Source: Herbiconiux sp. L3-i23
Lineage (GTDB): Bacteria > Actinomycetota > Actinomycetes > Actinomycetales > Microbacteriaceae
Assembly: GCF_023734115.1 (NCBI RefSeq)
Contig: NZ_AP025737.1
Coordinates: 2,914,001 to 2,978,000, forward strand
Length of the DNA stretch: 64,000 nucleotides
Direction of reading: 5' to 3'
Shown here one piece after another: positions 23,475-32,471 of the stretch; the stretch's first letter is position 1, and the number at the start of each line of letters is the position of its first letter. The translations under genes were made by a program, and so were the position numbers. Below the pieces are notes generated by a model. The model was not told where the DNA came from and made no database searches. It saw only the letters and a program-made list of their open reading frames with translations.

Positions 23475-23541
23475 TAGTGGGCAGATTGCGGCCGGGTCCT
23501 GATGCCGGGGCAATGTCGGTGGTCACTGCTTCACTGTGGGT

Positions 23542-24903
23542 ATGTCGAAGTCGCCCGCACCGCCACTGATGGCTGGTCCTTGGCCTGACTTGGAAGAGTT
23601 CGACGACCTCGACACGACCCCCGAGGACGAGTCCCGGCAGCACCTGAACCGACTCGCCGACCGGCTCCTCGACACCAAACGCGCCGAGGCCGCCGCGGCC
23701 GCCGACCGGTACAAGGTCGTGGATCAGTTCCGCCGCGAATGGGAGTCCTCCTCCGCGTCGAAAGCGTCCCTCGCGGGCATGCGGGTGAGGGCGATGCGCG
23801 CCGAACTCGCCGCCGCCCTCGGACTGTCCGAGCGCACCATCGAATCATTGATCGGCCGCGCCAAAGCGTTGACCACCGACCTTCCCTCGACCCTGATCGC
23901 GCTGCAGCGCGGGCAGGTGTCGGATCGGCAGGTGCAGGTCATCGTCGACGAAGCCGCCGGCCTCACCCCCGACGAAACAGCCGTGTTCGAGGCGGCGATC
24001 CTCCCCGAAGCCACAGCCTTGTCGGGTCCGAAGTTCGCCCGGAAGGCCCGCACCCTCCGCGAGCACCTCCGCGCAGTGGACCTCACCCAACGACACGCCA
24101 CCGCGGCCGAGTTCCGCGACCTCGGCCTAGCCGGGCAACGGGACGGCATGGCCGATCTGCTCCTGCACGGCCCGGCTCAGCACTCGGTCGCGATCTACAG
24201 CCGGGTCGATCAGATCGCCCGCACCCTTACCGACCCGGAGGACAACCGCACCCTGGCGCAGAAACGCGCCGATGTGTTCATCGCCCTGCTCCTCGACCCC
24301 GGTGCCGTGTTCCCGTCCACCGACACCGACGCGGAAAAGGGGCCGCGGCAGCCGGTCTTGCACCGGGGTGTCCGGCCCAACGTGAACGTCACCGTCCCCG
24401 CACTGTCCATCCTCGGCAAGTCCGACGAACCCGCGAACCTCGAAGGCTACGGGCCGATCTCGGTCGACACCGCCCGGGAACTCGCCGGGGCGGCGACCGG
24501 GTTCCACCGCATCCTCACCCACCCGGAGACCGGCGTGATCCTCTCCTTCGGGCGCGACAAGTACGAAGTTCCCGCCGAGCTGAAGCGTTTCCTGCGGGCG
24601 CGGGATGAGACCTGCCGGTTCGTCGGCTGCAACCGGCCCGCCGTCGCGTCGGACCTCGACCACACCGTCGCCTGGGAAGACGGCGGCGGCACCAACGTCT
24701 GGAACCTCGGCTGCCTCTGCAAGGGCCACCACCGACTCAAACACAACACCGCCTGGGTGGTAACGCAGGCAAGGGATGGCACGGGCGATTACACCTGGAC
24801 CTCACCCCTCGGCCGCGACTACACCACCAAACCCGCCATCAGAATCGGCGCCGGCGTCATCACCCAAACCGCCTGGCTCGACAACGACCCACCACCCTTC
24901 TGA
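23542..24903 (+). CDS. DUF222 domain-containing HNH endonuclease
   Basis: A 453-residue protein typical of actinobacterial DUF222-HNH genes. A long helical DUF222 region (about residues 30-310) is followed by the HNH nuclease motif around FVGCNRPAVASDLDHTVAWEDGG and NLGCLCKGHHRLKH (about 355-400). The zinc-ligand cysteines and the catalytic His of DLDH are visible. The start is probably ATG 23542; GTG 23536 is in frame but neither has a clear ribosome site. These genes occur in many copies per genome, and their role (mobile, defensive or DNA-metabolic) is unsettled. It is bracketed on both sides by the same 132-bp repeat family. Confidence 0.9.
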   Translation: MSKSPAPPLMAGPWPDLEEFDDLDTTPEDESRQHLNRLADRLLDTKRAEAAAAADRYKVVDQFRREWESSSASKASLAGMRVRAMRAELAAALGLSERTIESLIGRAKALTTDLPSTLIALQRGQVSDRQVQVIVDEAAGLTPDETAVFEAAILPEATALSGPKFARKARTLREHLRAVDLTQRHATAAEFRDLGLAGQRDGMADLLLHGPAQHSVAIYSRVDQIARTLTDPEDNRTLAQKRADVFIALLLDPGAVFPSTDTDAEKGPRQPVLHRGVRPNVNVTVPALSILGKSDEPANLEGYGPISVDTARELAGAATGFHRILTHPETGVILSFGRDKYEVPAELKRFLRARDETCRFVGCNRPAVASDLDHTVAWEDGGGTNVWNLGCLCKGHHRLKHNTAWVVTQARDGTGDYTWTSPLGRDYTTKPAIRIGAGVITQTAWLDNDPPPF

Positions 24904-24933: not shown

Positions 24934-25323
24934 GGTCGCTGAGCCGCCGCGCAGCGGCCCTGGCGATGCGACGGGTCGACGGATCACGCTGAGGCTCCGA
25001 GCCCAAGCTCCGTTCCCGTCATTTCGCGACGGGCCTGGCGGCCCTCCGGGGTGACCAGGAAACCCCGGTCGCTGAGCCGCCGCGCAGCGGCCCTGCGATG
25101 CGACGGGTCGACGAATCGCGCTGAGGCTCCGAGCCCAAGCTCCGTTCCCGTCATTTCGCGACGGGCCTGGCGGCCCTCCGGGGTGACCAGGAAACCCCGG
25201 TCGCTGAGCCGCCGCGCAGCGGCCCTGCGATGCGACGGGTCGACGAATCACGCTAAGGCTCCTACCCCAAGCGCAACTCCCGTCATTTCGCGACGGGCCT
25301 GGCGGCCCTCCTCAATGACCAGG
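24934..25323. repeat. 132-bp tandem repeat, downstream block (three units)
   Basis: Element A begins at 24934, 25066 and 25198 and element B at 25015, 25147 and 25279, giving an exact 132-bp period and three almost identical A-B units. Copies 2 and 3 are nearly base-identical, and copy 3 ends with the CTCAATGACC variant also seen upstream at 23416. It starts 31 nt after the DUF222-HNH stop. Because 132 is a multiple of three, frames stay open through the block on both strands, but no ribosome site or domain supports a protein. Confidence 0.93.
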
Positions 25324-25466: not shown

Positions 25467-27620
25467 CTAGCGGTCGAGGAGTTCCGAGATGGTCGCGTCG
25501 CCCGGGGTCACCGGGGTGGCGGTCGCCGTGATCTCGGCGCGGCCGAGCAGCTCCTCCATCTTGCGGCGGCGGTTCTTGCCGATGAGGGTCACGACGATGC
25601 CCTTCTTGCCGGCGCGCCCCGTGCGGCCCGCGCGGTGAAGGTACGTCTTGTACTCCTCCGGCATGTCCGCCTGGATGACGAGGCCGATGTCGTCGACGTG
25701 GATTCCACGCGCCGCGACGTCGGTGGCGACGAGGACGTTGACCTTGCCGCTCGTCAGACGCTCGAGGCTGCGGGTGCGCTTCGCCTGGTTGAGGTCGCCG
25801 TGAAGGCTCGTCGCCGGCACACCCGCGTCGTCGAGCTCCTCCGCCAGCTGCTCGGCGAAGGCGCGGGTTCGTGCGAACACCAGGGTCTTGCCCGGGCCGC
25901 TGGCGAGTTCGGCGACGAGCGCCACCTTGTCGCGCTGCTCGATGAGCAGCAGACGGTGGTCGATGTCGGAGGTCTCCTGATTCTCACCGGCGACCTCGTG
26001 CACCGACGGCTCGGGCAGGAACTCGTCGACCAGCGTCGCGACACCCGTGTCGAGCGTCGCGGAGAAGAGCAGGCGCTGACCGTCGGGGCGGGTGAAGCGG
26101 AGGATGCGCTGCACCGGCTCGAGGAAGCCGAGGTCGCACATGTGGTCGGCTTCGTCGAGCACGACGATCTCGACGTCCGAGAGGTCGAGGTGCCCCTGCT
26201 GCTCGAGGTCTTCGATGCGACCGGGCGTACCGATCACGATGTCGACGCCGCGCTTCAGCGCACCGACCTGCCGGGCCTGCGGGACGCCGCCGTAGATCTG
26301 GGTGGTGAAGAGGCCGACGCTGCGGGCGATCGGCTGCACTGTGCGGTCGATCTGCAGGGCCAGCTCACGCGTCGGCGCCAGGATCAGCGCGCGCGGGGCA
26401 CGACCGACGGCACGCTTGGTGCCACCCGAGTTCTCCATCAGGCGCTCGACGAGAGGCGCTCCGAACGCGATGGTCTTGCCCGAACCGGTGCGGCCGCGGC
26501 CGAGCACGTTGCGGTGGGCGAGCACATCGGGGATCGTGGCGGCCTGAATCGGGAACGGCGTCTCGGCGCCCAGCTCTGCGAGGGTGCGCACGATGTTGGT
26601 GCCGAGCCCGAGCGAGCCGAAGGTCGTGCCGACGACCTCGTCGGCGGTGATCGCCGACGCCTCGAGACGGTCGAGGACGACGTCCTCGATCTGGCTCATG
26701 TCGCGGTCGGGGCGACCGTAGAAGTCGGAGTGCATCGGCGTCGCATCGGTGTCGCGGTGCGGGGCGCGGTCGAAGCGCGGCGCGCGGTCATCGCGGCCGT
26801 ACCGGGGAGCCCGTTCGTCGCGGTCCCGACGCGGCGCGCGGTCGTCGCGCGAGAACCGATCCTGACGGGGCGCACGGTCGTCGCGGCCGAAGCGCGAGCC
26901 GCGGTCGTCACGGTCCTGGCGCGGAGCGCGATCGTCGCGGCCATATCGGGGCGCACGGTCGTCACGGCCGAAGCGCGAACCACGATCGTCACGGTCCTGC
27001 CGCGAAGCGCGATCGTCGCGACCGTATCGGGGCGCACGGTCGTCACGGCCGAAGCGCGAACCACGATCGTCACGGTCCTGCCGCGAAGCGCGGTCATCGC
27101 GGCCGTACCGAGGAGCGCGGTCATCCCGATCCTGACGCGGAGCACGGTCGTCACGACCGTACCGGGGCGCACGGTCCTCGCGGCCGTAACGGGAACCACG
27201 GTCGTCGCGGTCCTGACGGGGCGCACGGTCATCGCGGCCGTAGCGCGAACCGCGGTCATCGCGGTCCTGGCGCGGCGCGCGGTCGTCGCGGTTGTAGCGG
27301 TCGCCGCCACGAGGGGCGTCGCCGCGGAAGCGGGAGTTCTGCTCGGCGCGGGCGCGGCGCTGCTGCGACGCGGCGGCTCCGGCGCGCTTCGGGCGGGCCT
27401 CCGGCGGAGTCCAGTCAGGACGACCGTCGCTGCGCTCGGACGCCGAGTCGGCTCCACGACGAGGGGCGGACCCGCGAGCCGCGCGCTCGTCGTTGTTCCA
27501 CCGGTCCTTGCCGCGGGTCTCGGGCTCGGGTCGGTAACCGCGGTGCTTCGGGCTGACACTGCCGGCCTTGCGGCCCGCGGAGGCGCCGGGGCGGCGCGGA
27601 TTCGAGTTGGAAGAAGGCAT
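25467..27620 (-). CDS. DEAD-box RNA helicase with long Arg/Asp-rich repeat N-terminus
   Basis: A 717-residue ATP-dependent RNA helicase. The C-terminal ~400 residues hold the DEAD core: Q motif near FGSLGLG and [12 protein letters not shown], motif I GRTGSGKT, Ia [26 protein letters not shown], and [12 protein letters not shown]. The N-terminal ~300 residues are unusual: basic and low-complexity, with about 19 copies of a 9-residue unit of pattern xxRxxRDDR (residues ~108-290). Such tails are disordered, bind RNA and can drive condensate formation. The start is ATG 27620 with CCAGGAG 9 nt upstream. A ~177-nt structured leader precedes it, as often seen for cold-inducible helicases. Confidence 0.93.
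26760..27300 (-). repeat. In-gene 27-bp tandem repeat coding the RDDR tail
   Basis: The helicase N-terminus is coded by tandem 27-bp units (9 residues, for example [27 protein letters not shown]). They are also arranged as a higher-order 81-bp period: the same stretch recurs at 26957 and 27038, 81 bp apart, almost without change. Such near-identity suggests recent unit duplication and possible length variation between strains. Confidence 0.9.
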
Positions 27621-27832
27621 GAAGAAGTACTCCTGGAGAAGCCGTACGACGACGGCGGAAAACCCCGGACACCACTCTGGCCGGGCCGATTCGATGGATG
27701 ATTTCCAGCGATCCGCTGGCGGAACCGGCCCTGCGTGATCACATCCTGAGAACCTCAGGCAGCACCGGCATCACCGGAGCCCTCGTCACGAGCCGACCGG
27801 GAAACGTTACCCGATCAGGGCGTATCTGTCAC
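27621..27832 (-). promoter_or_regulatory. Promoter and structured ~177-nt leader of the RNA helicase
   Basis: On the minus strand a -35 GTGACA (27827-27832) and -10 TAACGT (27804-27809) are separated by 17 bp. The -10 lies within a 16-base quasi-palindrome CGGGAAACGTTACCCG (27798-27813), which could be an operator. Transcription would start near 27797, leaving about 177 untranslated nt. The leader holds two short perfect hairpins: CCTGAG/CTCAGG at 27745-27759 and CCAGCG/CGCTGG at 27705-27719. A leader of this kind fits post-transcriptional (cold or self-) control. Confidence 0.55.
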
Positions 27833-27867
27833 GCGGCCCTGCGGAGGCGTCCTTCGTATCGCTTCGC

Positions 27868-30800
27868 TCAGGCGGCGGGGGTGGGTGCGGGTTCCTCGGC
27901 GGCGGCGCGGGCCGCGCGACGGTCGCGTCGGCGCTCCCGCCCTCCTTCGACCAGCAGGTACAGCACCGGCAGCACGATGAGGGTCAGCGCCGTCGACGAC
28001 ACCAGACCGCCGATCACCACGAGGGCGAGCGGCTGCGAGATGAAGCCGCCACCGCCGGTGAGCCCGACCGCCATCGGCAACAGCGCGAAGATCGTCGCGA
28101 GCGCCGTCATGAGGATCGGCCGGAGTCTGCGGCTCGCTCCCTCGACGATCGCCTCCCGCACCTTCAGGCCACGGTCGCGGTACTGGTTGATGAGGTCGAC
28201 GAGCACGATCGCGTTCGTCACCACGATGCCGATCAGCATGAGCACGCCGATGAGCGAGGCGACACCGAGCGGGATGCCGGTCGCCACCTGCAGCAGGATC
28301 GCTCCGGTCGCCGCGAACGGCACCGACACGAGCAGAAGCAGCGGCTGCAGCAGGCTGCGGAAGGTCGCGACCATGACGACGTAGACGATGAGGATCGCGG
28401 CGAGCATCGCAAGTCCGAGCTGCGAGAACGCTTCGTTCTGGTCCGCGGTCACACCGCCGAGCTGGGTGCCGACACCGGCCGGCAGATCGAGGTCGTCGAG
28501 CGCTCCCTGCACGGCGGCGTTCGCCTCGGCGAGGTTGTCGGAGGCCGGCGTCACCGAGACCGTCGCGTTGCGGGTGCCGTTGTTGGTGGTGACCGTCGCG
28601 GGCCCCTCGGTGATATCGACGCTCGCGAGCGTGTCGAGCGGCACGAGTCCGCGGGTCGTCGGCACCGGCAGGGCGGCGAGCTCGTCGCGGGTCGCGGGGC
28701 TCGTCTCGGGCTGGATGTAGATCGACAGCTGCTGCTCGTCGATCGTGATGGCCCCGATCGTCGACGGCTGCATCGCCTGCGAGACGAATCCGGCGAGCGC
28801 CGCCTCGGTGAATCCGGCCTGCGCTGCCGCTTCACGGTCGACGGCGATCTCGATGAACGGCTGCGCCGCGGCGAGGCTGCTCGTCGCCTCGGCGACGGCG
28901 TCGAGGTCGCGCATGGCCGCGAGGACGGTGTCGGTCGCGTCCTGCAGGTCGGACTGAGTGGTCGCGTCGATCTCGACGTCGATCGTGCTCGAGGCACCGA
29001 GACCGGCCGACTCGGAGATCGAGAAGTCGCCCGCGCCGTCGAGGCCGTCGAGCCGCTCGCGCACCTCGTCCTGCAGCGCCGCGGTGTCGGCGCCGTCCGC
29101 GGTGGTGATCGAGTAGCTCGCCGTGTTCGAGCCGCCGCCGAAACCGAAGCCCGCAGCGAGGCCGCCGCCGCCGATGGTGACCTGGACCGTCTCGATGCCC
29201 TCGATCGACTCGAGCTCGGCTTCGGCGCGCTGTGCGGCCTCGTCCTTCACGTCGAGGCTGGTGCCGGGCTCGAACTCCTCGGTCACCGACAGAGTGTTCT
29301 GTCCGCTGTCGCCCAGGAAGTTCGTCTTCATGAAGAACGAGAGACAACCGGAGGCGACGAGGATCATGCCCGCGACGATGATCGTGACGACGGGGCGGCC
29401 GAGAGTCGCCTTGAGCAGCGGCAGATAGCCGACCTGCAGACGCGACGGACGCTCCTCGCCGTCGGCCTCGGACGCGTGCCGATGCGGTTTCGGTGCCCGC
29501 AGGAACCAGTAGGCGAGAACGGGCACGATCGTGAGCGAGACGAGCAGCGACGCGACGAGCGCGATGGTGACCGTGAGGCCGAACGGACGGAACAGCTCAC
29601 CGACCGACCCGCCGACGAACGAGATGGGCAGGAACACCGCGACGGTCGTGATGGTCGACGCGGTGACCGCGCCCGCGACCTCGCGCACCGCGTTCGCCAC
29701 CGTCGCCGCCTTGCTCTCGTGGTCGATCGCGAGGTGCCGCTTGATGTTCTCGATGACGACGATGGAGTCGTCGACGACGCGACCGATCGCGATCGTCAGA
29801 CCGCCGAGGGTCAGGATGTTCAGCGAGTAGCCGGCGAACTGCATCCCCACGAAGGTGATGAGAACCGATGCCGGGATGGAGATCGCCGTGACGAGCGTCG
29901 CCCGCACCGAGAGCAGGAAGACCAGGATCACGATGACCGCGAACACCAGGCCGAGCAGCCCCTCGGTCGCGAGCGACTCGATCGACTCCTCGATGTAGGG
30001 CGCCTGGTCGAAGACGGTGGTGAAGGTCGCATCGCCCAGTTCCGCCTGGATCTCGGGGAGCGCGTCGTTCACGAGGTGCGACACCTCGACCGTGTTCGCG
30101 TCGGGCAGCTTCGTCACCGCAAGGGTGAGCGCGGGCTCGCCGTTGACGCGCGAGATCGAGGTCGCCGGGTTGTCCGTCACCGCGACCGAGGCGACGGCAC
30201 CGATGGTGGTCTCGCCCGATCCGCCGACGAGCGGCAGCGCGGCGATCTCATCGACCGACGTGAGGCGCGTGCCGCTCTGCACGGACAGGGTCTGGCCGTC
30301 TTGGGTGATCTGTCCGGCGGGGATCAGCACCCCGCTGCTGCTGATGGCGTCGCGGATGGCCGAGCTGGTCACTCCCGCCGCCGCGAGCTGCGCCTGGTCG
30401 GCGGCGATGGTGACCCGCTGACCAGGCGCACCGGAGACCGTGACACCGCGGACCCCGTCGAGCTCCTCGAGGGGCTGCACGGCGATCTGGTCGAGCCGGT
30501 CGGCGAGCGCGGAGGCGTCGTCACCCGACACGGCGAGCTGGATGATCGGGAAGTCGTCGATGCTGCCGCTCAGCACCTGGGGGTCGAGATCGGCGGGGAG
30601 GACCGACGCAATGCGGCCGAGGGCGGCGGAGACCTTGTTCTCGGCGGCGGCCAGGTCGGTGCCGTACTCGAAGGTCGCGCTGACGACCGACTGCCCGCTG
30701 CTCGAGGTGGCAGAGGTGCTCTCGACGTCGGCGATGCCGCGGATCGCCTGCTCGATCGGAGCGCTGACGCTCTGGTTCACGACCTCGGGCGATGCACCCT

Positions 30801-30957
30801 GGTAGGGAGTGATCACCGCGATCTGCGGGAACTGGATCGACGGGATCAGCTCCTGCTTCAGCGATGTGAGGGCGATGCCTCCGAACACGGCCGCGACGAT
30901 CGTCACGAGCGCGATCAGGGCACGGTTCTTGAGGCTTGCGATCGCCAGTACGTGCAC
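27868..30957 (-). CDS. RND-family efflux transporter (AcrB/SwrC-like)
   Basis: A 1029-residue resistance-nodulation-division pump that exports amphipathic compounds using proton flow. It has the tandem-duplicated RND layout: TM1 near ALIALVTIVAAVFGGIAL, a first large external loop, and a TM2-TM6 block containing IAIGRVVDDSIVVIENIKRH (the charged motif of TM4). A second external loop and the matching C-terminal block GVLMLIGIVVTNAIVLVDLINQ follow. No membrane-fusion adaptor or outer-membrane gene is nearby, as for SwrC-type pumps of Gram-positives. GTG 30957 is chosen because a -10 box lies 7 nt upstream, implying a leaderless message. A frame extending further upstream shows no family sequence. 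Confidence 0.93.
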   Translation of the reverse strand: MHVLAIASLKNRALIALVTIVAAVFGGIALTSLKQELIPSIQFPQIAVITPYQGASPEVVNQSVSAPIEQAIRGIADVESTSATSSSGQSVVSATFEYGTDLAAAENKVSAALGRIASVLPADLDPQVLSGSIDDFPIIQLAVSGDDASALADRLDQIAVQPLEELDGVRGVTVSGAPGQRVTIAADQAQLAAAGVTSSAIRDAISSSGVLIPAGQITQDGQTLSVQSGTRLTSVDEIAALPLVGGSGETTIGAVASVAVTDNPATSISRVNGEPALTLAVTKLPDANTVEVSHLVNDALPEIQAELGDATFTTVFDQAPYIEESIESLATEGLLGLVFAVIVILVFLLSVRATLVTAISIPASVLITFVGMQFAGYSLNILTLGGLTIAIGRVVDDSIVVIENIKRHLAIDHESKAATVANAVREVAGAVTASTITTVAVFLPISFVGGSVGELFRPFGLTVTIALVASLLVSLTIVPVLAYWFLRAPKPHRHASEADGEERPSRLQVGYLPLLKATLGRPVVTIIVAGMILVASGCLSFFMKTNFLGDSGQNTLSVTEEFEPGTSLDVKDEAAQRAEAELESIEGIETVQVTIGGGGLAAGFGFGGGSNTASYSITTADGADTAALQDEVRERLDGLDGAGDFSISESAGLGASSTIDVEIDATTQSDLQDATDTVLAAMRDLDAVAEATSSLAAAQPFIEIAVDREAAAQAGFTEAALAGFVSQAMQPSTIGAITIDEQQLSIYIQPETSPATRDELAALPVPTTRGLVPLDTLASVDITEGPATVTTNNGTRNATVSVTPASDNLAEANAAVQGALDDLDLPAGVGTQLGGVTADQNEAFSQLGLAMLAAILIVYVVMVATFRSLLQPLLLLVSVPFAATGAILLQVATGIPLGVASLIGVLMLIGIVVTNAIVLVDLINQYRDRGLKVREAIVEGASRRLRPILMTALATIFALLPMAVGLTGGGGFISQPLALVVIGGLVSSTALTLIVLPVLYLLVEGGRERRRDRRAARAAAEEPAPTPAA

Positions 30958-30964
30958 AGTGTGG

Positions 30965-30983
30965 ATTATCGCGGACCGCGATA
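30965..30983 (-). promoter_or_regulatory. RND pump promoter with overlapping palindromic operator
   Basis: On the minus strand GATAAT (30965-30970) is a strong -10 box whose start point would fall at or next to the GTG start, giving a leaderless mRNA. It overlaps a perfect palindrome TATCGCGGACCGCGATA (30967-30983, 7-bp arms, 3-bp centre), a good repressor site. Its half-site CGCGATA recurs in the PadR-associated operator at 33198-33238. Confidence 0.6.
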
Positions 30984-31043
30984 TCGGTTCGGTTACGGAA
31001 CCCTGAGCACTCCGTTTCCCTCCACCGCCGTTCCGACCGCCCT

Positions 31044-32471
31044 TCAGACCACCGCGGCCAGGGGCTGCTCGAGGCTGCGCGGCGCGTCGGCGACATCCGC
31101 CCACACGTCCGCGAGGATGCCGACGGCCTCGACCGCGGCATCCGCGCCGGGGCCGAACGGGATGCGGATGAACCGTTCGAAGGCGCCGTCGAGCCCGAAC
31201 CACGGCCCCGCCGCGATGCGAAGCCCGCGGGCGCGGGCGCCGATCGCGAGCTGCGAACTCACCGGCGAATCGAAGCGCACCCATGCCGCGAGACCGCCGT
31301 CGATCGACGGCACCCGCCAGTCGGGGAGCCGCTCGGCGACCGCGGCGACGATGGCGTCGCGCGCCGCCCCGCTCTCGCGCCGCCGATGCGCGAGCACCGC
31401 ATCGATGTCGTCGAACAGCTCGGCCGTCACGACCTGGTCGAGCACCGCGGTTCCGAGGTCGCCGATGGGGCGCGTCGCGGCGAGCGCGGCGATCACGTCT
31501 TCGGAGGCGCGGATCCATCCGACACGCAAGCCGCCCCACATGGTCTTGCTCGCCGACCCGACCGTGATCACCCGCGATCTGGTCGAGCCGAAACTCGCGA
31601 GCGGCGGGAATGATCCGACCCGGTCGATGTCGAGCTCGGCGGTCGTCTCGTCGACGATCACGGTGGCGCCGACATCGTGGGCGGCGCCGATGAACCGTTC
31701 ACGGCCCTCGACCGACAGCGAGCGTCCCGTCGGGTTGTGGAAGTCGGGCATGAAGTAGGCCAGCGCCGGCGCCGCGCGGCGCAGGAGCTGCTCGCCCTCG
31801 CCGATGTCCCAACCGGTGTCCGCGTCGACGGGCAGCGGCAGCAGTCGCGCACCCGCCGCGCGGAGGGCTTCGTGGGCGTGCGGGTAGCCGGGCGTCTCGA
31901 CGAGGGCGCGGTCGCCGCGGCTCACGAGCGTGCGGGCGAGCAGGGCGAGAGCGGGCTGCGCCCCCGAGGTGACCAGGATCTGCGACGGCCGCGTAGGGAG
32001 GCCTCGTCGCACGAAGTGGGCGGCGATCGCCTCGCGCAGCCGCGGCAACCCGATCAGCTCGTACCCCGAGCTCGTCAGCGCGGGGGCGAGCCCGGACAGC
32101 GCCCGCGCGGCGGCGGCTTCGAACGCCGGGGTAGCGGGCGACGACGCGGTGGCGAAGTCGAGCGCCGCGCCCTGCGGGGCGAGCTCGGAGCGGCGACCGT
32201 CGGGGACTCGGATCGCACTGCCGGAGCCCCGCCGGGTGACGATGTGGCCGGTGGCGCGAAGGTCGTCGAGGGCGGCCGCCAAGGTGGTGCGACTGACGCC
32301 GAGAGCGCTTGAGAGCTCGCGTTCCGCCGGAAGCCGCGTTCCGACCGCGATGCGGCCGTCGATCGCCAGCAGTCTGATGCGGTCGGCGAGGGCGCGATAG
32401 CCGACACCGTCGGTCGGCCGCCAATCGGACAGAAGCGTTCGCATCTGGTCCGCACTGATCGCCCTCGCCAT
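31044..32471 (-). CDS. MocR-type regulator (GntR helix-turn-helix fused to aminotransferase)
   Basis: A 475-residue MocR protein. The GntR winged helix at residues ~20-90 (GTRLPAERELSSALGVSRTTL) is fused to a fold-type-I aminotransferase-like domain. The PLP-binding lysine is seen in SASKTMWGGLRVGW (about residue 304), and DFHNPTGRSLS and VIVDETTAELD supply other cofactor contacts. MocR proteins sense PLP or amino compounds and activate neighbouring genes. It is divergent from a YczE membrane protein, a well-known pairing. The start is ATG 32471, close to a likely -10 on its own strand, so it may be leaderless. Confidence 0.93.
   Translation of the reverse strand: MARAISADQMRTLLSDWRPTDGVGYRALADRIRLLAIDGRIAVGTRLPAERELSSALGVSRTTLAAALDDLRATGHIVTRRGSGSAIRVPDGRRSELAPQGAALDFATASSPATPAFEAAAARALSGLAPALTSSGYELIGLPRLREAIAAHFVRRGLPTRPSQILVTSGAQPALALLARTLVSRGDRALVETPGYPHAHEALRAAGARLLPLPVDADTGWDIGEGEQLLRRAAPALAYFMPDFHNPTGRSLSVEGRERFIGAAHDVGATVIVDETTAELDIDRVGSFPPLASFGSTRSRVITVGSASKTMWGGLRVGWIRASEDVIAALAATRPIGDLGTAVLDQVVTAELFDDIDAVLAHRRRESGAARDAIVAAVAERLPDWRVPSIDGGLAAWVRFDSPVSSQLAIGARARGLRIAAGPWFGLDGAFERFIRIPFGPGADAAVEAVGILADVWADVADAPRSLEQPLAAVV

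Follow-up and report, generated by a model that had tools for sequence, protein, structure and literature searches.

A conserved, covarying leader RNA upstream of a DEAD-box helicase gene in Microbacteriaceae is a candidate two-state translational switch

Bacterial helicase genes are already known to be regulated after transcription. The DEAD-box helicase gene crhR of Synechocystis is controlled partly at this level, and according to the abstract its control depends on its own product and on temperature (PMC3485376). The 5′ UTR of E. coli cspA, a thermosensor (PMC9947658, PMC6386945), is the long leader of an RNA-remodelling gene; the accessible text describes two alternative folds with different structures around the ribosome-binding site, and folding intermediates have been studied (PMC9947658). 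In the available parts of the respective reports, feedback through the own 5′ UTR is described for two genes of RNA metabolism, rne (PMC10989929) and H. pylori rnj (PMC5874925), and the uORFC-6-1 motif appears as a covarying leader before hflX, a gene described as an RNA helicase (PMC8632094). Here we analysed the leader of a helicase gene in a 64,000-nt stretch of DNA (the window, to which all coordinates refer unless a locus is named). We conclude, with a probability of roughly 60%, that this leader acts as a two-state translational switch of the helicase gene and that this switch is conserved in Microbacteriaceae.

The gene (25467..27620, minus strand) had been predicted from the window alone to encode an RNA helicase, and this was borne out. 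Its 717-aa product contains the Pfam domains DEAD (best stretch aa 357-526, 146.2 bits, cut-off 26) and Helicase_C (aa 567-671, 94.9 bits, cut-off 23.5). DEAD-box proteins carry the motifs GxGKT, PTREL, DEAD, SAT and HRxGRxGR, and all of them were recognised by eye. The helicase core covers approximately aa 319-717 and is preceded by an N-terminal extension. CshA is the best NCBIfam match and is found among the best PDB matches, and the protein has an ordinary DEAD-box core but stays below the NCBIfam equivalog cut-offs for CshA (310 of 646) and RhlE (289 of 743). The closest named match is from A. flavum (86% over the core), and the source genome groups in Microbacteriaceae near Amnibacterium and Naasia. 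In a helicase tree of 54 rows, the 19 orthologs formed one clade with a support of 100/100. This clade holds none of the rows from the 15 genomes of other families that were searched; 10 of the 20 rows from these genomes group with a second Microbacteriaceae helicase instead. Because the orthologs form a Microbacteriaceae clade of their own without rows from other families, the helicase type itself looks family-specific within the sample that was treed.

The N-terminal extension carries a repeat tract (aa 111-284; 26769..27290, minus strand) of 19 units, namely 17 RDDR, one RDER and one REDR, nearly all of them 9 aa apart. The original prediction had counted about 19 RDDR nonapeptides, which is correct, and had described them as a tail of the helicase, which is wrong, since the tract sits before the core. 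Arg and Asp make up 33% and 26% of aa 101-292, a composition relevant to the suggestion of a disordered, RNA-binding tail that could form condensates. At the DNA level the tract has a higher-order period of 81 bp (26866-27122; 3.2 copies, 91% match), while its 27-bp rows match at 67-70%. Codons for the same residue agreed more often than in a codon-shuffle null at a lag of 81 bp (0.622 vs. 0.505 ± 0.041, p 0.002), and agreement was not above the null at lags of 27, 54, 108, 162 or 243 bp. Recent copying has therefore acted on the 81-bp unit, and the claim that the copies are nearly identical in DNA holds for this unit, but not for the 27-bp units. An Arg-rich N-terminal extension was present in every ortholog read, and among those read, which were part of the orthologs, the repeat unit varies among genera. 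Across 77 orthologs, with the window left out, the extension is 179-447 aa long, three of these (L030, L039, L083) having a broken frame between start and core. Its length was unequal in all 12 ortholog pairs whose cores are at least 95% identical in DNA. One pair has a broken frame; the other 11, six of which come from four Clavibacter records and are not independent, differ by 5-38 aa. This fits length turnover between species, by slippage or recombination. The predicted change in repeat length is thus supported between species, and a constant repeat number, which would speak against slippage, is contradicted by the same comparison.

Two features of the flanking DNA are recorded here. Between an ORF at 23536-24903 (plus strand) and the 3′ end of the helicase gene, a 132-bp unit is present in 2.9 tandem copies (24934-25311, 95%); full or partial relatives lie at 72 places in the source genome, and the unit therefore belongs to a dispersed repeat family. 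Upstream of the helicase gene and on the same strand lies a long ORF (27868-31539, minus strand), presumably encoding an RND transporter, and a similar frame is found upstream in locus L113.

Alignment of the DNA 5′ of the ortholog start codons revealed strong conservation, and comparison of relatives identified the first 138 nt of the leader (27661..27798, minus strand) as a conserved structured RNA. A covariance model (R1) built from 52 cores found it as the sole match with E ≤ 0.01 in the source genome (E 5.3e-8). Of 80 named orthologs of this helicase, 75 have an R1 match in front of the gene, and the five misses arise because a contig end cuts the locus inside the gene. In total, 144 of 199 Microbacteriaceae genomes from 67 of 85 genera gave a match, with one leader copy in 140 genomes, the source genome having one, and two copies in four. 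Three genomes, all in one genus (g8), carry a second, mostly partial copy directly after the first (G015 C1:3687390-3687602, G097 C27:12345-12556, G159 C94:26065-26297). The gene context is almost uniform: 46 of 47 family loci have the helicase downstream of the element, 44 by core match and two by the repeat-bearing N-terminal frame, and the remaining locus ends 23 nt past the element. Among the 55 family genomes that gave no R1 match, 22 were examined; 21 of them encode a close helicase, about 19 of these being apparent orthologs, and six of the 19 ortholog loci show an R1 match at E up to 1 (three below 0.01). Loss and divergence may both occur. Searching 297 genomes of the order with R1 returned no convincing leader copy outside Microbacteriaceae: 19 of the 20 matching genomes lie inside the family, and the weak match outside it (L153, E 0.006) was rejected as chance at a locus without helicase match. 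Rfam 15 (4227 families) gave no match in the window at the gathering score, and none over the leader at E ≤ 1 in the seven named loci searched out of 80; mir-278-type matches in L024 (4283-4356) were discarded, as they lie outside the leader. A published description of the leader was not recognised in the literature searched, which consisted mostly of open papers. We file the leader as a new cis-regulatory element in the known class of structured bacterial leaders, outside any named family.

The likely 5′ end of this RNA is indicated by a -10 hexamer, TAACGT (27804..27809, minus strand). Although the sigma-70 scan called no promoter here, the -10 is conserved: in 75 of 78 leaders a TAnnnT starts 11 nt upstream of the element, and in the remaining three the distance is 10 nt. 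These 78 leaders derive from 79 model matches, L055 having been dropped when its start codon was lost in filtering. For the window, GTGACA (27827..27832, minus strand) is a possible -35 hexamer; a -35 with at least four of six matches was seen in only 22 of the 78 leaders. Given the fixed distance of the -10, transcription is predicted to start at the first bases of the element, which yields leaders of 158-298 nt. The window's predicted leader, counted from this start through the last base ahead of the start codon, measures 178 nt (27621..27798, minus strand). The leader of about 177 nt claimed for the window is therefore supported if transcription starts behind TAACGT, and the conserved -10 makes a start close to the start codon unlikely. 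A palindrome over the -10 had been claimed as well (27788-27823, 76%). It exists and is unusual in the window, as 0.7% of the background placements made across the compared loci reached its score, but it is not conserved, as no relative out of 77 reached that score. Terminator-like sites, defined as a stem followed by a T run, were absent from 27500-28100 of the window.

To describe the fold, we used alignment A1 (MAFFT), which contains 52 rows, namely the window and 51 of 63 plus-strand cores from 67 extracted cores. Left out were 12 cores longer than 141 nt or nearly identical to others, L091, L095 and L096 because of their strand, and L089, which is the window's own gene. RNAalifold on A1 gave two helices, P1 (UCGGCUC and nnGAC with GUCnn and GGGCCGG) and P4 (CCCGG with CCGGG), and the hairpin P2a was added by hand. 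In this structure 95.4% of cells are paired (86.9 shuffled), nine pairs changed on both sides (5.9 ± 1.1 shuffled; four of 500 shuffles as high) and 75 cells show two-sided change (22.5 ± 3.5 shuffled). The covariation score was 0.236 against 0.089 in shuffled alignments, was reached in none of 500 shuffles and was at most 0.060 for slid structures, where kinship among the sequences inflates this and all other shuffle and permutation tests reported here. The 46 genome loci, aligned by the model and hence biased toward its structure, gave 65 two-sided-change cells (14.5 ± 3.7 shuffled) and a score of 0.271 (0.132 shuffled), and the 79 matches of the first set, also model-aligned, gave 147 such cells (40.6 ± 4.8 shuffled). 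The two variable inner pairs of P1 went through at least seven and at least ten state changes on a helicase tree, while the outer P1 arms give no covariation of their own because they are almost invariant. At the level of sequence, covariation in the inner P1 pairs, P2a and P4 demonstrates a conserved structured domain.

The invariant part of P1 has a second potential partner. GGGCCG can also pair downstream with CGGCCC to form a helix, P3, that excludes P1 and overlaps P4. Throughout A1, GGGCCG is invariant and its P3 partner changes from C to U only, so that G-U pairs are kept (24 cells); 10 cells in five rows are unpaired as aligned, and CGGCCC occurs one column further along in each of these rows. 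P3 shows no two-sided change, a shuffle control is without power here, and a partner slid by +1 still pairs in 80.5% of cells; the case for P3 therefore depends on invariance and wobble. The P3a region is expanded in L035, L044, L045, L048, L055, L070, L082 and L088 (Subtercola, Frigoribacterium), apparently by inserted extra hairpins, with cores of 162-233 nt. The 3′ arm of P4 in turn is complementary to the ribosome-binding site, a pairing that we call P5. Native P5 duplexes were more stable than those with permuted partners (-11.93 vs. -11.07 ± 0.25 kcal/mol, p 0.0006; 26 leaders less than 75% alike), and nine shifted controls all gave p above 0.09. For these tests L053 and L063 were left out, as P4 could not be located in them, which gives 76 leaders, 69 of them unique and 26 taken as representatives. 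In some lineages P5 is poor, for example in L025, L010, L058, L067, L074 and L075. A GCCATGCA-like stretch recurs in many of L012-L088 approximately 15-35 nt 5′ of the start codon, before the ribosome-binding site. A further candidate pairing, between GGGUUUGU in the P1 loop and ACAACCC upstream of the ribosome-binding site, gave a weak signal (p 0.054 with 26 leaders, 0.031 with 72) and was rejected.

Predicted ensembles place the two folds at different stages. Folding was evaluated for 75 leaders, L013 being left out too. In prefixes ending before the P3 3′ arm, the probability of P1 exceeded 0.5 in 62 of 75, and in full leaders that of P3 did so in 64 and that of P5 in 58. When P1 and P4 were enforced together (72 leaders, as three have no 5-bp P4), the mean predicted openness of the ribosome-binding site was 0.55 instead of 0.41, with 47 leaders more open and nine less open, at a median cost of 11.5 kcal/mol, although energies computed for RNAs of this size (190-330 nt) are approximate. 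P1 enforced alone raised openness to just 0.44 from 0.41; the gain comes with P4. By these predictions, the best-covarying fold has the lower stability of the two in the full-length RNA, as expected of a switch that folds during transcription. The modelling thus suggests two exclusive folds that would form in this order.

We propose the following mechanism. In the on state, P1 (UCGGCUC and the covarying inner stem with GGGCCGG) and P4 (CCCGG with CCGGG) would be formed and the ribosome-binding site would be freer. In the off state, GGGCCG would pair downstream with CGGCCC (P3), which would break P1 and compete with P4, so that the released CCGGGUU-type arm could pair with the ribosome-binding site (P5). 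P1 would form first during transcription, and P3 together with P5 would be the stable end state. Sequence comparison supports such a switch by the conservation of the leader, the covariation described above, the species-matched P5 duplexes, the fixed -10 and the helicase context, and from these we infer an effect on translation. Layered control through the leader, as the original prediction had put it, gains support from a leader that is a conserved, covarying RNA. A simpler function would be that the structure only adjusts how stable the mRNA is or protects its 5′ end, while translation is not switched. Stems that protect 5′ ends start at the very end of the RNA, and P1 does begin at the predicted 5′ end; this reading, however, accounts neither for P4 and P5 nor for the two rival pairings of GGGCCGG, and we regard it as highly improbable.

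The copy in the window is a divergent member (48 bits) of the leader family that keeps the outer P1 arms and GUGA/UCAC. All of its parts lie on the minus strand. The 5′ arm of P1 (UCGGCUC and GUGA) is found at 27786..27796 and the 3′ arm (UCAC, 3 nt and GGGCCGG) at 27725..27738, with a CCGG/CCGG hairpin in place of P2a (27765..27777). The 5′ arm of P3, GGGCCGGUUC (27722..27731), has GGGCCGG in common with P1, and its 3′ arm is GAAUCGGCCC (27683..27692). The 5′ arm of P4, CCCGG (27681..27685), overlaps the latter, and the 3′ arm of P4, GUCCGGGGUUU (27660..27670), is at the same time the P5 arm directed against the ribosome-binding site CUCCAGGAG (27630..27638). The two perfect hairpins described for this leader are present, both with 6-bp stems and 3-nt loops; one lies in the P1 loop, within a lineage insertion in A1 (27745..27759), and the other is P3a (27705..27719). 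Taken alone, two short hairpins carry little weight, since 23 inverted pairs of at least 6 nt are found in 341 bp and shuffled sequences folded no worse than the leader in 17 of 200 cases. Folded by itself, the leader is no better than chance (z -1.24), and a leader that looks random in this way can still carry a clear signal after comparison with relatives. In the window's full leader P3 (1.00) and P5 (0.98) are predicted with near certainty. Its own P1 appears weak, with a predicted probability of only 0.01 in the prefix, and enforcing it costs just 1.2 kcal/mol.

In 55 of 110 distinct cores the P1 loop contains AUGGGUUUGUAA; the loop is replaced in the window's genus (window ~27739-27785). 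This loop sequence could be read as a 3-codon upstream ORF or as a candidate protein or ligand site. With start and stop variants allowed, the ORF (start, GGU, UUG, stop) is readable in 68 of the 110 distinct cores; some variants lose the stop, the pattern searched is absent from 23 cores, and the upstream ORF was rejected. If the conserved loop were instead bound by a protein, such as the helicase, a cold-shock protein or an RNase, the binder could repress or stabilise its own mRNA without any two-state switch, and the complementarities of P3 and P5 would be by-products of G+C-rich arms. The loop's recurrence in half of the distinct cores and the presence of a single copy in 140 of 144 matching genomes, before one gene that encodes an RNA-binding enzyme, speak for such a binder, and the available parts of two papers state 5′ UTR feedback for RNase E (PMC10989929) and propose it for H. 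pylori rnj (PMC5874925). Binding of this kind, however, predicts neither species-matched P5 duplexes nor wobble-only variation in P3, and we consider it unlikely. The loop could also be the pocket of a small-molecule riboswitch with the same P1/P3 expression platform, given an aptamer-like P1, a GGGCCGG that changes partners and a ribosome-binding site that can be paired. Known riboswitches are found mostly ahead of genes for metabolism or transport, and a genome often has several of them, whereas here one helicase gene only is concerned, and in the window's genus the loop is largely replaced while the gene stays; a ligand of this type thus seems quite improbable to us.

For the two-state switch, we prefer cold and feedback by the helicase as triggers. 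Both would fit the gene, and related control has been published for cspA, crhR and rne/rnj. The predicted openness of the ribosome-binding site varies little over the range of 10-37 °C (mean 0.39 to 0.43). Since openness at equilibrium hardly depends on temperature, cold, if it acts, should act on the speed of refolding. As a tentative extension, which we consider possible but doubtful, the leader may be a refolding timer that senses the RNA-unwinding capacity of the cell without a ligand or dedicated regulator. Each new transcript would start in the metastable, covarying state with P1 and P4 and would be translatable. Refolding to P3 and P5 would shut translation, and cold would slow this step and prolong synthesis. 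The helicase would resolve P1 of its own mRNA and thereby close the loop. If the timer exists, the helicase level would be set by how well RNA is unwound. More generally, if the switch holds, the leader represents a well-supported and apparently undescribed family of cis-regulatory RNAs that is tied to one RNA helicase and, within the genomes searched, confined to a single large family of bacteria from soil, plants and water. Two competing folds in the conserved leader of a helicase gene would make the measuring and setting of RNA-unwinding capacity by the cell directly testable.

The known systems differ from the present one in several respects. The uORFC-6-1 motif is, in the available text, found mostly in Bacillales, is a candidate upstream ORF and precedes another gene (PMC8632094), whereas the 3-codon reading of the Microbacteriaceae P1 loop is possible but often broken. 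In rne and rnj a ribonuclease gene is regulated and feedback depends on the RNA degradosome, and the accessible parts of these reports describe no such switch (PMC10989929, PMC5874925). crhR is a cyanobacterial helicase gene, and the abstract names no conserved leader structure (PMC3485376). Unlike cspA, as far as it is described in the text available (PMC9947658, PMC6386945), the Microbacteriaceae leader, which has no relevant Rfam match in the loci searched, exchanges an invariant GGGCCGG and an arm directed against the ribosome-binding site. Finally, the helicase shares its core domains with CshA- and RhlE-type helicases, but it scores under half of their cut-offs, carries N-terminal Arg/Asp repeats and falls, in the sample treed, into a Microbacteriaceae clade of its own.
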